Shown in pieces: positions 11,300-19,770 of a stretch of DNA of 64,000 nt (position 1 is its first letter; each line of letters begins with the position of its first letter). Both the position numbers and the translations under genes were made by a program. Where the stretch lies: positions 3,450,004 through 3,514,003 of the forward strand of contig NZ_KE386496.1 in NCBI RefSeq assembly GCF_000427445.1. The letters are read 5' to 3'. Under the pieces are notes generated by a model that did no database searches, had not been told where the DNA came from, and saw only the letters and a program-made list of their open reading frames with translations. The DNA is from Methylocapsa acidiphila B2. Its GTDB lineage: Bacteria > Pseudomonadota > Alphaproteobacteria > Rhizobiales > Beijerinckiaceae.

Positions 11300-11836
11300 A
11301 CCCAAAGCAGCCTTTCAGCGTAGTGAAAATATCAAGATATATGGAACACGCAAGGTATAGTTATTTTACAAGCATATCATTACGATTTGCCCCCCCAAAG
11401 ACGTGAGCGGAGCAATAATTAGAATTCCTGTCAATTTCACGGATGGTCGCGATAGCCCGAGGACCTTTCGCATTATATAGAAGTTTGAGTGGCAATTCTC
11501 CTTTCGGTCCTTCTGTCGCGATAGATTGAGAAGGTGTGATGGCCACTTCAAAACCTTCGGCAGGGGTGGTCATGGGCAGGCGTTTTCGTTGCGGGCTACT
11601 CACTACGTTACTGGCCCTCAGCTTCGGCGTTGGGAGCGCCTTCGAATCAATGGCTCAGCAGCCGCCAGACCTGTTTCGGTTGTTCAACGGCGTCATTCAA
11701 GGGGTTGCAGCGCGAGCGGCTCAAACAGAATGGAGAAAGCTGTCACAGAAAGAAATAGGATGCATTGATAGTAAACTTCGTCCCAATCGGAGTAGCGCCG
11801 CACAATTGATCCGGAGCGGTATTCAACCTAGCGACC

Positions 11837-12618
11837 CTAGGTCCTGTTGACAAATATGCGCATCCAGATCCTGATCGCGGCGATTTGGACGAACCCGAGA
11901 TAGCTGGCTGCGGTTTTGTCGTAGCGGGTTGCGAGGCGCCGAGAGTTTTTGAGCTTGTTGAAGCAACGCTCGACGCGGTTGCGCAAGGCATAGATGTGAC
12001 TGTCGATCTGGATTTGGATCTTGCGGTTTCGGCGCGTCGGAATGATGGCCGCAGCGCCTGTTTTCTCCAGCGTTTCGCGAATATGATCGGAATCATAACC
12101 ACGATCGGCGAGCAGGACTTTGGCCTCAGGTCCTTCCGCTTCCATCAAGGGGGCGAAGCCCGAATAATCCGAGACCTCGCCTGCGGTGATCTTTGCGGCT
12201 ATCGGCAGTCCTTCGCCGTTCGTGCGGAGGTGAATCTTTGTCGTGAAGCCACCTCTCGAGCGGCCAAGACCCTGACGCGGAGTCCCCCTTTAGCGCCGGC
12301 GGCGCAGTGATGCGCCCGGATGATGGTCGAGTCGATCATCTGGACGGTCTCGCCAACGCCCTCGGTTTCATTCAGGGCTTCCAGAAGGAGCTCCCACAGC
12401 CCACTGAGAGTCCAGCGCCGGAACTGCCGATAGACCGACGACCATTTGCCGAAATGCTCGTGCAGGTCCCGCCATTGCGCGCCGGTGCGGGCAATCCAGA
12501 AAATCCCATCGAGAACGAGGCGGTGGTCCTTCGGCCGTCGCCCGCTATGCGCGCCGCGAACCGTCACGAACGGCTCGAAACACGCCCATTCCTCATCCGA
12601 CATCAATCCCCGAATCAA
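11837..12618 (-). CDS. IS427-group transposase, orfA/orfB joined by -1 frameshift (copy 1)
   Basis: OrfA (12199-12618) starts at a TTG preceded by a perfect AAGGAGG; it holds the N-terminal domain and the first catalytic Asp in QMIDSTI. A -1 slip in the run AAAGGGGG (12284-12291, minus strand) moves ribosomes to the second frame, giving RSRGGFTTKIHLR and the DRGYD motif (second catalytic Asp). The C-terminal NRVERCFNKLKNSRR region carries the Glu. The DDE transposase is therefore complete only after frameshifting. The stop codon TAG is completed by target-site bases 11837-11839 outside the element. Confidence 0.88.
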
Positions 12619-12690
12619 GCCCGCCTCCTTCCGAAAGCGACCTTGAATCAGAACCTTACCCTAATGGGAATCCTATTTGTCAACGGGACC
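11840..12690 (-). mobile_element. IS5-family (IS427-group) insertion sequence, copy 1
   Basis: An 851-bp element. Terminal inverted repeats begin GGTCC-GTTGACAAAT on both sides, and it is flanked by the dinucleotide TA (11838-11839 and 12691-12692) within an original CTAG target. It appears identical to the copy at 18992-19842. It carries one transposase gene in two overlapping frames. The element disrupts the coiled-coil repeat gene. Confidence 0.93.
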
Positions 12691-13516
12691 TAGGCTATCG
12701 GCGGTTCGCAATGAATGTAGATCAGAATTGCGGCAAGCGGAGGCAAAACCAAACCAAAATCCGAGTCCAAATCCTCAACGAGCGATGCGCTCAACATTTG
12801 CAGTTGCAGGAATCCGTCTTGGTGATTTGATCGTAAACGAACTAGCTTACAGGCGATACAAATGTTCCCCAAGCGAGCAATTCAGTTCGTTCATTTTTTG
12901 CACGAGCAGTGAGGAGTTGTCAGGTCAAAACGGGCGATTCGCGCGCGGCAATTCCTTGCTACATTCTCAAAATGGAACGGCAGTCTATGTCTCGGAGAAT
13001 ATTACCCCCGCCTTCTTTGGCCCTTCTGACGTCGACAATGAGTTAAGGCGGCTCGCTGCTCATTATAAGGAGCAGCCAAGGATTTTCTTAATGCGTGCGG
13101 AACCGGGGCTTCCAAGTGGGGTGATTGCTACGTGGGGCAGTGTTGTATTGGAGCCGTTGGATGCGGACAGCGTCAACTTTTTGGCGGCCGGCAAACACCC
13201 GCAGAAGGGATTTTTAATTGATTTCTTGGGGAACTTCCGGCGATCCGCTCAGCTTGGATTGCCAATTTACAAAATGACGGGTGGTGCGGGAATATTATGG
13301 AGTGCAAGCTACGATACCTCGGGCAAAGGAAATCTGCGGATCACGGCTATAGATCCTTCTCAATTTGGAGTCAGTGGACCGCCAACTACAGCACTGACGG
13401 CTGCGCCGCCATTTGATCCCGCGCAATTCGATGGAAGGGTCGAAATAGCTCGGAATCCAAGCTCAGCTTCGCCACCCCGTCAACAAGACGAAGAGATGCC
13501 AGCCGCCGTGGTGCAG

Positions 13517-13882
13517 CAAGCCGATCAGCAACGGCTCGCGCAGGCTGACGAGCAACGTCGTGTTGAGCAGGCGAGGCAACAAGCCGATCAGCAACGGCTC
13601 GCGCAGGCTGACGAGCAACGTCGTGTTGAGCAGGCGAGGCAGCAAGCCGATCAGCAGCGGCTCGCGCAGGCTGACGAGCAACGTCGTGTTGAGCAGGCGA
13701 GGCAGCAAGCCGATCAGCAGCGGCTCGCGCAGGCTGACGAGCAACGTCGTGTTGAGCAGGCGAGGCAGCAAGCCGATCAGCAGCGGCTCGCGCAGGCTGA
13801 CGAGCAACGTCGTGTTGAGCAGGCGAGGCGGCAGGCCGATCAGCAGCGGCTCGCGCAGGCTGACGAACAACGTCGTGTTGCA
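13517..13882 (+). repeat. 63-bp tandem repeats (five full copies and a partial sixth)
   Basis: Units start at 13517, 13580, 13643, 13706, 13769 and 13832, each 63 bases and almost identical at the DNA level; only a few silent or R/Q changes differ. Each unit codes 21 residues rich in Q, A, R, D and E, in frame with the host gene. The near-identity suggests recent expansion by slippage or unequal crossover. They are coding repeats, not a CRISPR. Confidence 0.95.
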
Positions 13883-14407
13883 CCCGCGAGTGGTGACATG
13901 GCGACCACTATTCTTGGAGTTTTGTCGGTTTTTTACATCGTCGCAGCGGCCTTCCGAGTCCTGCCTATTGTGCGGCGGCCCTTGATGCATTGGTACAATT
14001 CCCAAATGTGGATTATTAGTGGAACCGGCCCGGTAGATATATTATTGAAGCAGATTGGTTTTCGTTTAACTTTCGAATTGTTCATATTTGGGATTGCCTG
14101 CGTATTTGGTGCTCTCGGCGGATGGCTGCTAACCATAAGAAAAAACCCAAGGGGCGATCAGGCTGATATCGGCGGGTCAAATCAGGCCAATGGATAGTCT
14201 TTCGTTTCAGCGGATTTTATAGAATGAAGAGCGCCTTCAAGGTTTGTGCACGGTGAGGCCGACCACTTACAGCGTGCAGATATCGGGAGCCAATGTCCGC
14301 GTTCCACCCTTTGCAGCGATCTAATAGAGCTACGAACTGCGCTGGTTCCAACAGGCCTAATGACGGCGGTGACCTCGGTTCGCCCTTTCCAAATGCCCCC
14401 TCACATA

Positions 14408-14430
14408 TTAGTTTAGCTTCACTAAACTAA
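14408..14430. promoter_or_regulatory. Perfect 9-bp palindrome upstream of the HTH-ribB gene
   Basis: Arms TTAGTTTAG (14408-14416) and CTAAACTAA (14422-14430) are exact inverted copies around a 5-base spacer, centred about 33 bases before the ATG at 14452. Within otherwise GC-rich DNA this AT-rich site stands out. A related half-site (CTAAAACTAAAC) occurs inside the first codons near 14470. It is a candidate operator, perhaps for the HTH domain of the gene that follows; this is inference. Confidence 0.55.
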
Positions 14431-14451
14431 CCCCGCCGCCCAAGGCGCCCT

Positions 14452-15741
14452 ATGAAGCTCGGCGATTGGCTAAAACTAAACAATCTCAGCCGCGCGGAGT
14501 TCGCCCGTCGGACCGGCCTTTCGAAAGGCGCGGTCTCGCAGATCTGCAATCAAGAGGACGCCTGGGTCTCGCGCGAGACCGCGCAGCAGATTTTGCGCGA
14601 GACCGGCGGCGCCGTGACGCCGAACGATTTGCTCGACGCCCATAAAACCAAGGAGCTTGCGCCCATGGCCAATTCGGTCACCCAGGCCATCGAGGCCATT
14701 GCGCGGGGCGAGATCGTCATCGTCACCGATGACGACGACCGCGAGAACGAAGGCGATCTGATCTGCGCCGCCGCCCATTGCACGCCCGAGAAAATGGCCT
14801 TCATCATCCGCAATTGCTGCGGCATCGTCTGCGCGCCGATCACCGGCGACGAGGCCAAGCGGCTGAACCTTCAGCCCATGGTGGCGACCAATGACGCGCC
14901 GCATGGCACGGCCTTCACCGTCTCGGTCGACGCCAAGCACGGATTGACGACAGGCATTTCCGCCGAGCAGCGCAGCAATACGGTGCGCGCCCTGGCCAAT
15001 GGCAATATGGGCGCGTCGGATTTTGTCCGCCCCGGCCATGTTTTTCCGCTGATCGCGCGGGACGGCGGCGTGCTCATGCGCTCCGGCCATACCGAGGCCG
15101 CCGTCGATCTCTGCCGCCTCGCCGGCCTGCCGCCCGTCGGGGTGATTTGCGAGCTCGCCAATGACGACGGCACGGTGATGGCCGGGCCGCAAATCGTGGC
15201 TTTCGCAGAAAAACACGGCCTGAAGCGCATTTCCGTCGCCGATCTCATCGCCTATCGGCAGGCGCGGGAAAAAATCGTGCAGCGCGTCGGGGCCTTTTCG
15301 GTCGAGGGGCCGAGCGGGCCACTGATGGGCTACGCCTATGTCACGCCCTTCGATCAGGTCCAGCATTTCGCCTTCGTTCAGGGCGAGATCGGCGATGGGC
15401 GCGAGGTGCCGACGAGGCTGCATCGCGTCGACATTGTCGCCGACCTGATCATGGGAGGTGATACGGTCCGCAAGACCTTCGCCTGCTTCAAGAAGGAGGG
15501 GCGCGGGGTCTTCATCTTCTTGCGGGACGGGACGGCGGGCGTGCCGGTCAATATTCCGGGCGCGCCAAAGCCCGATTTGGAGGCCCTGCGCCATAAGGAA
15601 TGGCGCGAGATCGGACTCGGCGCGCAGATCCTGCGCGATCTTGGCGTTTCCTCGATCCGGCTGCGGGCGTCACGGCCGATGACTTATGTCGGCCTCTCGG
15701 GCTTCGGCATCGAGATCGTCTCGAGCGAGGGCCTGGAGTAG
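14452..15741 (+). CDS. ribB: RibB (3,4-dihydroxy-2-butanone 4-phosphate synthase) with N-terminal HTH and RibA-like C-terminus
   Basis: A 429-residue protein in three parts. Residues 1-60 look like a Cro/CI-type helix-turn-helix ([18 protein letters not shown]). Residues 73-280 are DHBP synthase, which makes the four-carbon riboflavin precursor from ribulose 5-phosphate; the acidic loop [11 protein letters not shown] (92-102) is intact. The C-terminal third resembles GTP cyclohydrolase II but lacks its zinc-binding cysteines, so that activity is unlikely. A second start, ATG 14665 (Met72), has AAGGAG nine bases upstream and would give a stand-alone RibB. No FMN riboswitch is seen; the palindrome at 14408 may be the control site. 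Confidence 0.9.
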
Positions 15742-18829: not shown

Positions 18830-18988
18830 CGTCTTTACTCGTGAAGTCTGGAGGGGGGCTGAAGCTCGCGGAGCTCCCATGGAATGATCATCGGGGAAGA
18901 TTAACGCCTTCTAACCATTTTTATTTTGATTCGGCTCATTTCGGCTTCGCCTGAGCTGTCGATCGTCACGGAAACATCTTTAAAGAGC

Positions 18989-19770
18989 CTAGGTCCTGTT
19001 GACAAATATGCGCATCCAGATCCTGATCGCGGCGATTTGGACGAACCCGAGATAGCTGGCTGCGGTTTTGTCGTAGCGGGTTGCGAGGCGCCGAGAGTTT
19101 TTGAGCTTGTTGAAGCAACGCTCGACGCGGTTGCGCAAGGCATAGATGTGACTGTCGATCTGGATTTGGATCTTGCGGTTTCGGCGCGTCGGAATGATGG
19201 CCGCAGCGCCTGTTTTCTCCAGCGTTTCGCGAATATGATCGGAATCATAACCACGATCGGCGAGCAGGACTTTGGCCTCAGGTCCTTCCGCTTCCATCAA
19301 GGGGGCGAAGCCCGAATAATCCGAGACCTCGCCTGCGGTGATCTTTGCGGCTATCGGCAGTCCTTCGCCGTTCGTGCGGAGGTGAATCTTTGTCGTGAAG
19401 CCACCTCTCGAGCGGCCAAGACCCTGACGCGGAGTCCCCCTTTAGCGCCGGCGGCGCAGTGATGCGCCCGGATGATGGTCGAGTCGATCATCTGGACGGT
19501 CTCGCCAACGCCCTCGGTTTCATTCAGGGCTTCCAGAAGGAGCTCCCACAGCCCACTGAGAGTCCAGCGCCGGAACTGCCGATAGACCGACGACCATTTG
19601 CCGAAATGCTCGTGCAGGTCCCGCCATTGCGCGCCGGTGCGGGCAATCCAGAAAATCCCATCGAGAACGAGGCGGTGGTCCTTCGGCCGTCGCCCGCTAT
19701 GCGCGCCGCGAACCGTCACGAACGGCTCGAAACACGCCCATTCCTCATCCGACATCAATCCCCGAATCAA
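18989..19770 (-). CDS. IS427-group transposase, orfA/orfB joined by -1 frameshift (copy 2)
   Basis: Identical in both frames to the transposase of copy 1: orfA 19351-19770 from TTG, slippery run at 19436-19443, second frame to the stop at 18989-18991. The stop codon is again completed outside the element by the CTA of the target. Both copies look intact and potentially active. Confidence 0.88.

Follow-up and report, generated by a model that had tools for sequence, protein, structure and literature searches.

The window, by which we mean the whole 64-kb stretch of DNA analyzed here, carries a gene that joins a helix-turn-helix (HTH) domain to an enzyme of flavin synthesis and stands behind a palindrome. 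Fusions of this kind occur in a group of bacteria from soil and plants. The question raised by this locus is whether the enzyme reads its own promoter, and whether it is made in two forms. The features that bear on this question are listed below.

14408..14430, no strand assigned: operator-like perfect inverted repeat, TTAGTTTAG-CTTCA-CTAAACTAA
14452..15741, plus strand: HTH-RibBX long form, 429 aa, ATG at 14452, stop at 15741
14452..14634, plus strand: Cro/C1-type HTH domain, residues 1-61 (Pfam HTH_3)
14650..14655, plus strand: internal Shine-Dalgarno AAGGAG, 9 nt upstream of the internal ATG at 14665
14665..15741, plus strand: predicted short form RibBX, 358 aa, ATG at 14665 (residue 72)
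14683..15255, plus strand: DHBP synthase (RibB) domain, residues 78-268, with RENEGD and GHTEAA kept
15310..15723, plus strand: RibX domain, residues 287-424, with a GTP cyclohydrolase II fold and no zinc cysteines

An earlier reading of the sequence alone had described an HTH fused to DHBP synthase and to a zinc-less RibA-like domain, and both parts of that description stood. Pfam detected HTH_3 at residues 6-52 (30.1 bits against a cut-off of 23; E 5e-7 with the first 72 aa alone), a complete DHBP_synthase domain (PF00926; residues 78-268, E 3e-84, profile positions 2-191 of 191), and GTP_cyclohydro2 (PF00925; residues 287-424, E 5e-20). The RENEGD and GHTEAA motifs were invariant across 28 aligned sequences. 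In an alignment to 4i14, the cysteines of the RibBA motif, which we take to be zinc ligands, had no counterpart in the window protein. With these cysteines missing and a score of 17.7 bits against a cut-off of 205.85 for the NCBIfam ribA model, the protein does not group with the GTP cyclohydrolase II (RibA) enzymes. Foldseek matched the RibX domain to the RibBX structure 6mnz and to E. coli GTP cyclohydrolase II (2bz0), and no riboflavin kinase domain was found among the Pfam and NCBIfam matches of the window protein with E up to 1. A complete DHBP synthase followed by a GTP cyclohydrolase II-like domain devoid of zinc cysteines is the composition of RibBX, as which we classify the enzyme half from its sequence. 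The AlphaFold2 model of the HTH contains five helices (residues 3-9, 14-21, 25-33, 41-50, and 57-60), of which that at residues 25-33, with Gln30, is the recognition helix; confidence is moderate, with pLDDT 69-87 per block of ten residues and 69 at the lowest. The HTH_3 profile match together with this helical bundle makes the domain a Cro/C1-type (Xre) HTH. In its own 4.1-Mb genome, the window protein is the sole match to itself.

It should be noted that the segment containing the gene is bracketed by two copies of one insertion element (11833-12618 and 18985-19770 of the window), whose ORFs have one translation and one strand in common; the copies lie 7152 bp apart and agree over at least 300 nt. 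These ORFs are read as transposases, and the arrangement resembles a composite transposon. Tandem repeats of 63 nt occupy positions 13450-13953, inside an ORF at 12677-14197; six overlapping 189-nt copies were found, and the units encode a QQRLAQADEQRRVEQARQQAD-like sequence.

The perfect palindrome that had been claimed before the start is indeed present, as a 9-bp inverted repeat that ends 21 nt upstream of the ATG at 14452. The portion of it shared by the family is GTTTAG-N5-CTAAAC. The repeat is the only match at up to three mismatches within the 64 kb, and a match was obtained in 1 of 100 shuffles. In the whole genome, the exact core TTTAG-N5-CTAAA occurs at two places and the core with up to one mismatch at 14, compared with 141 for the reversed control. 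The second exact core (G000:C2:680889; L082 1501-1515), about 110 nt upstream of a hypothetical 185-aa ORF, is probably due to chance. No sigma-70-like promoter was found between positions 14200 and 14700 of the window.

We then read the upstream regions of related genes. The first set consisted of the 80 best relatives from one genome scan: 60 carried the main HTH type from the first residue (61 with the window), 16 lacked an HTH and served as controls, L054 and L081 carried another type (T2), and L024 (match beginning at residue 43, hence an ambiguous N-terminus) and L051 (at a contig edge) were excluded. Among these relatives, a MAG of Methylorubrum extorquens has no HTH. An order-wide search, which matched ribBX in 285 of 297 genomes, supplied a second set of 60 loci, comprising 56 further HTH-bearing genes, one T3 gene (L164), one T2 gene (L168), and two excluded loci (L169 and L170). 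All of 20 additional HTH-less loci were used, which brought the controls to 36, and removal of the duplicates L060, L117, and L147 left 114 non-redundant HTH-RibBX genes. Seven further loci and L194 were read singly, outside all counts; six of these seven have the HTH, with operator scores of 11-14, and L195 and L198 repeat L003 and L028, respectively.

The main consensus, TTTYAGT-N3-ACTRAAA, was read off the first set, and a second one, TATTAGC-N2-TGCTAATA, was read off the genes of a single clade (f21). All 61 genes of the first set had a site resembling the main consensus at 10/14 or better within 120 nt, and 54 of them reached 12, a score attained by 0.07% of letter shuffles. At 12/14 or better within 70 nt, the operator preceded 96 of the 114 HTH-bearing genes, none of the 36 HTH-less genes, and 0.04% of dinucleotide shuffles. 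The main consensus alone, at 11/14 or better in 75 nt, was found before 104 of the 114 (57/60 in the first set and 47/54 in the second); as the two consensuses came from first-set and f21 genes, the sole independent count is that of the second set with f21 left out. When either consensus was allowed, 110 of 114 fused genes had an operator compared with 1 of 36 unfused ones, the exception being L075, with a match 106 nt upstream. The sequence-only reading had staked its case on the palindrome recurring before other HTH-ribB fusions, and it does so. Four fused genes received no operator call: at the usual position, L008 and L027 score 10/14, and the sites of L030 (12/14) and L124 (11/14) lie 62 nt upstream, beyond the scored interval. 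Neither the HTH nor the operator is present in L005, L006 (Methylocapsa palsarum), and L038, which belong to the clade of the window. A putative operator before the gene, co-occurring with the DNA-binding domain that the gene encodes, is what marks a trigger enzyme or autoregulator at the level of sequence.

The association also appears to hold when kinship is considered. In a quickly built tree of the catalytic region (154 rows, without the first 66 residues; the program flagged long branches), 12-14 changes of the HTH label are required, and starred branches force no fewer than eight of them. Among eight independent pairs, the operator followed the HTH in 6.5 on average, opposed it in 0.1, and did not differ in 1.4 (median p 0.016, range 0.016-0.125), which suggests that HTH and operator were gained or lost together.

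HTH-RibBX seems to target its own gene. A search of 16 other genomes for the consensus with up to one mismatch returned 19 places, 17 of them upstream of ribBX, compared with eight for the reversed control pattern. A match stood before ribBX in 15 of the 16 genomes, and 12 had it nowhere else; G302 and G305 have a second, tandem site before ribBX, G297 has two places elsewhere, and G312 has none. These counts agree with the self-targeting that had been proposed, and HTH-RibBX looks dedicated to its own promoter. A wider regulon was considered and found no support up to one mismatch, the two places that do not precede ribBX both being in G297.

The operator also varies with the presumed reading head. 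Where residue 30 of the recognition helix is Ala, Gly, or Ser, position 4 of the half-site is C in 141 of 142 half-sites; where it is Gln or His, that position is T in 50 of 66 and another base in 16. This table was made without f21 and without L008 and L124 (fewer than nine of 12 operator positions), and L027, with Leu30, belongs to neither class. The f21 clade, whose helix reads TQGRVSQ or near it, has a different operator. Since the tree provides only three independent pairs on supported branches (p 0.25), the covariation is a strong description with weak statistics, and we dropped it as proof because it is not significant on the tree.

Other HTH types are fused to RibBX as well. The T2 fusions (L054, L081, and L168) form one clade, in which the first start has a strong Shine-Dalgarno sequence (-9.3 to -9.5), and L054 and L168 have a common GCAACA/TGTTGC spaced repeat. 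The T3 gene has a perfect 7-3-7 palindrome of its own, GTTGCCA-AAA-TGGCAAC, a TA hexamer 6 nt upstream of the start, and internal ATGs at -5.0. Both HTHs resemble the main one at 24-50% over short stretches (best E 9e-4); on this weak similarity they were rejected as members of the main type and kept apart, and they likely arose by separate fusion, judging from these comparisons. Outside the order, L194 encodes an HTH-RibBX with the operator, a TA hexamer, a first start at -5.3, and an internal TTG at -10.3. It shares with L050 (a MAG named Zavarzinia) the operator TTTAAGT-N3-ACTTAAA, or a near form of it, and a TTG internal start with a Shine-Dalgarno energy of -10.3.

The second part of the question concerns translation. 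The internal ATG at 14665 preceded by AAGGAG, pointed out in the sequence-only reading, was confirmed, with an anti-Shine-Dalgarno duplex of -7.7 kcal/mol compared with -3.2 at the first start. Scanning a fixed 22-codon window at the start of the RibB domain, we found that the best start codon has a mean Shine-Dalgarno energy of -7.4 and reaches -5 or better in 108 of 114 genes, compared with 21.8% of 5235 windows of that size taken from other parts of these genes. At the first start, the mean is -0.83, and only three of 114 genes reach -5; starts with a Shine-Dalgarno sequence include those of L003/L195 (-7.4), a close relative of the window, and L201 (-6.4), which has no start codon within the scanned internal window. 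The dinucleotide TA at -12 precedes 77 of 114 first starts, an arrangement reminiscent of a -10 hexamer set 6 nt ahead of the start codon; it is absent before the first start in the window, L002, L003, and L004. The first start thus looks leaderless in most relatives, judging by these motifs, and not so in the window's own clade.

The internal signal could be a relic, no longer used, of the start of the ancestral ribBX, with Lys-Glu or Arg-Glu codons spelling out the Shine-Dalgarno sequence and only the long form being made. We regard this as unlikely, although it deserves weight: the HTH-less orthologue L005 begins at the residue matching the window's internal start, and synonymous shuffles already average -5.55, so that the strength of the internal sequence is partly forced by the amino acids. 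The synonymous-codon test was weakly positive (p at or below 0.1 at 31% of loci). Against a relic, the internal start codon and its Shine-Dalgarno sequence have been kept in eight family codes of the order and in L194, and the first start mostly has no such sequence to offer. Retention is also not automatic, because around the start of RibB the T2 fusions carry GTG codons but no ATG (-3.2, -2.2, and -5.8, the last in L168). We therefore infer that one gene probably gives rise to a long form, predicted to bind DNA, and a stand-alone short form, as the conserved internal start suggests and as had been proposed for the window.

The placement of the sites bears on the direction of control. Of the proximal sites, 75/77 end 22-27 nt upstream of the start, and all 54 distal sites end 49-53 nt upstream, while two control intervals further upstream had sites in 0/114 genes. 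Among the 107 genes outside f21 (at 11/14), the proximal site stands alone in 48 and the distal site in 25, while 29 have both and five have neither; where both occur, the spacing is 26-29 bp. In the seven f21 genes, the sites lie 7-8 nt upstream of the start. From these distances, the proximal site would cover the likely -35 region and the f21 site the likely -10. Repression is the simplest reading because the proximal site would sit over the -35 region (the -10 would be 6 nt before the start) and the f21 site over the -10.

With the same operator and the same self-targeting, HTH-RibBX might instead activate its gene, or the distal site alone might matter. The 25 genes with only the distal site, many Bosea among them, speak for this version, which we nevertheless find improbable: the proximal site passes in 77 of 107 genes and would overlap the -35 region, and both it and the f21 site fit occlusion of RNA polymerase as far as their inferred positions go. 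That the palindrome acts as an RNA hairpin, either an attenuator or an occluder of the start site, is very improbable; the inverted repeat is perfect, able to fold, and changes in both arms together, but it lies upstream of the predicted transcript start where a -10-like hexamer is visible, its sequence is conserved beyond pairing, and it accompanies the HTH rather than ribBX. We give as little credence to a general cell regulator that would bind the palindrome and leave the RibBX HTH another role, since, although other Cro/C1 regulators are known to bind similar AT-rich palindromes, the matches in the 16 genomes almost all precede ribBX, the site is mostly missing where the HTH is missing, and its sequence tracks the recognition helix of that very HTH.

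The best explanation, to which we assign a probability of roughly 0.8, is that HTH-RibBX is a trigger enzyme reading its own promoter. RibB is a homodimer, so the long form could present two HTHs to the palindrome, and it would do so as a RibB dimer. Binding at the proximal site would repress transcription, and in genes with a further site 26-29 bp upstream, two dimers may bind jointly. For most family members, the transcript would begin at or near the first start codon, yielding the long form from a leaderless start, and ribosomes entering at the internal Shine-Dalgarno sequence would yield the short form without the HTH. The latter would provide enzyme and, via mixed dimers, weaken DNA binding. 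A small molecule of the pathway may tune binding, the candidates being ribulose 5-phosphate at the active site of RibB and, in the pocket of RibX, a flavin or a nucleotide. The leaderless step is weaker in the window's clade, which has no -10 hexamer at the usual place, though the operator and the internal start are present.

More tentatively, at somewhat less than even odds, we can sketch a fuller picture in which an essential flavin enzyme and a repressor dedicated to it alone come from a single gene. Promoter occupancy would be set, through mixed RibB dimers, by how much long form is made relative to short form, with the balance between leaderless and Shine-Dalgarno initiation and a pathway metabolite as the signal, and RibBX would have acquired at least three HTH types, probably by separate fusions.

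FMN riboswitches regulate riboflavin genes in many bacteria. The sequence-only reading had noted none here, correctly: no RF00050 match was found in the window or in the whole 4.1-Mb genome, and the same search was positive in 7 of 14 control genomes. Within the order, 108 of 297 genomes have one. At least 57 of the 297 genomes have the HTH, and the riboswitch occurs in 9 of these 57 compared with 99 of the 240 others, in a comparison uncorrected for kinship and with HTH status incomplete among the others. This distribution fits a partial replacement of one control by the other. A riboswitch standing in for the HTH was also considered and set aside, as an Rfam scan of 20 of the 36 HTH-less ribBX loci returned no match.

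The only GTP cyclohydrolase II match in the window's genome (G000) is the zinc-less RibX domain, which leaves the first step of flavin synthesis there without an evident enzyme. A match to GTP cyclohydrolase II better than 1e-30 is missing in 26 of 60 genomes of the family. For Rhizobiales, a route through a formamidase is reported, with a cyclohydrolase that is not known (PMC9478397).

Self-control by HTH-RibBX offers a possible protein-based regulation of flavin synthesis in Hyphomicrobiales genomes that have no FMN riboswitch, with an operator code at hand. It would be a compact enzyme and repressor from one gene, split by two translation starts, and operator and HTH can be followed across a dozen or more gains or losses. 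Because the conserved operator is short and has hardly any further copy in the genomes examined, the model is readily testable.

No published account of HTH-RibB or of its regulation was found in open-licence full texts. Among known systems, the closest to the enzyme half is RibBX of Acinetobacter baumannii (PDB 6mnz), which likewise joins a DHBP synthase to a GTP cyclohydrolase II-like domain and belongs to the same family. Unlike the window protein, it has no room for an HTH, since the match spans window residues 76-424 and chain residues 6-363 of 373. RbkR, the archaeal HTH-riboflavin kinase regulator that controls rib genes, is likewise a flavin-pathway enzyme fused to an HTH. It is, however, a kinase of archaea with rib genes as targets, while HTH-RibBX is a bacterial RibB that seems to control itself; we know of no internal start in RbkR. 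The FMN riboswitch (RF00050) exerts its control through RNA, whereas HTH-RibBX is a protein. BirA, PutA, and NadR are trigger enzymes, in which a metabolic enzyme carries a DNA-binding domain that controls genes of its own pathway. Their enzymes are unrelated to HTH-RibBX, which differs in that its own gene is its sole apparent target and in that a conserved pair of starts uncouples DNA binding from catalysis. Enzymes that bear a DNA-binding domain are thus already known; novelty appears to lie in which enzyme is involved, in its targeting of nothing but its own gene, in the conserved pair of starts, and in the several HTH types fused to it.
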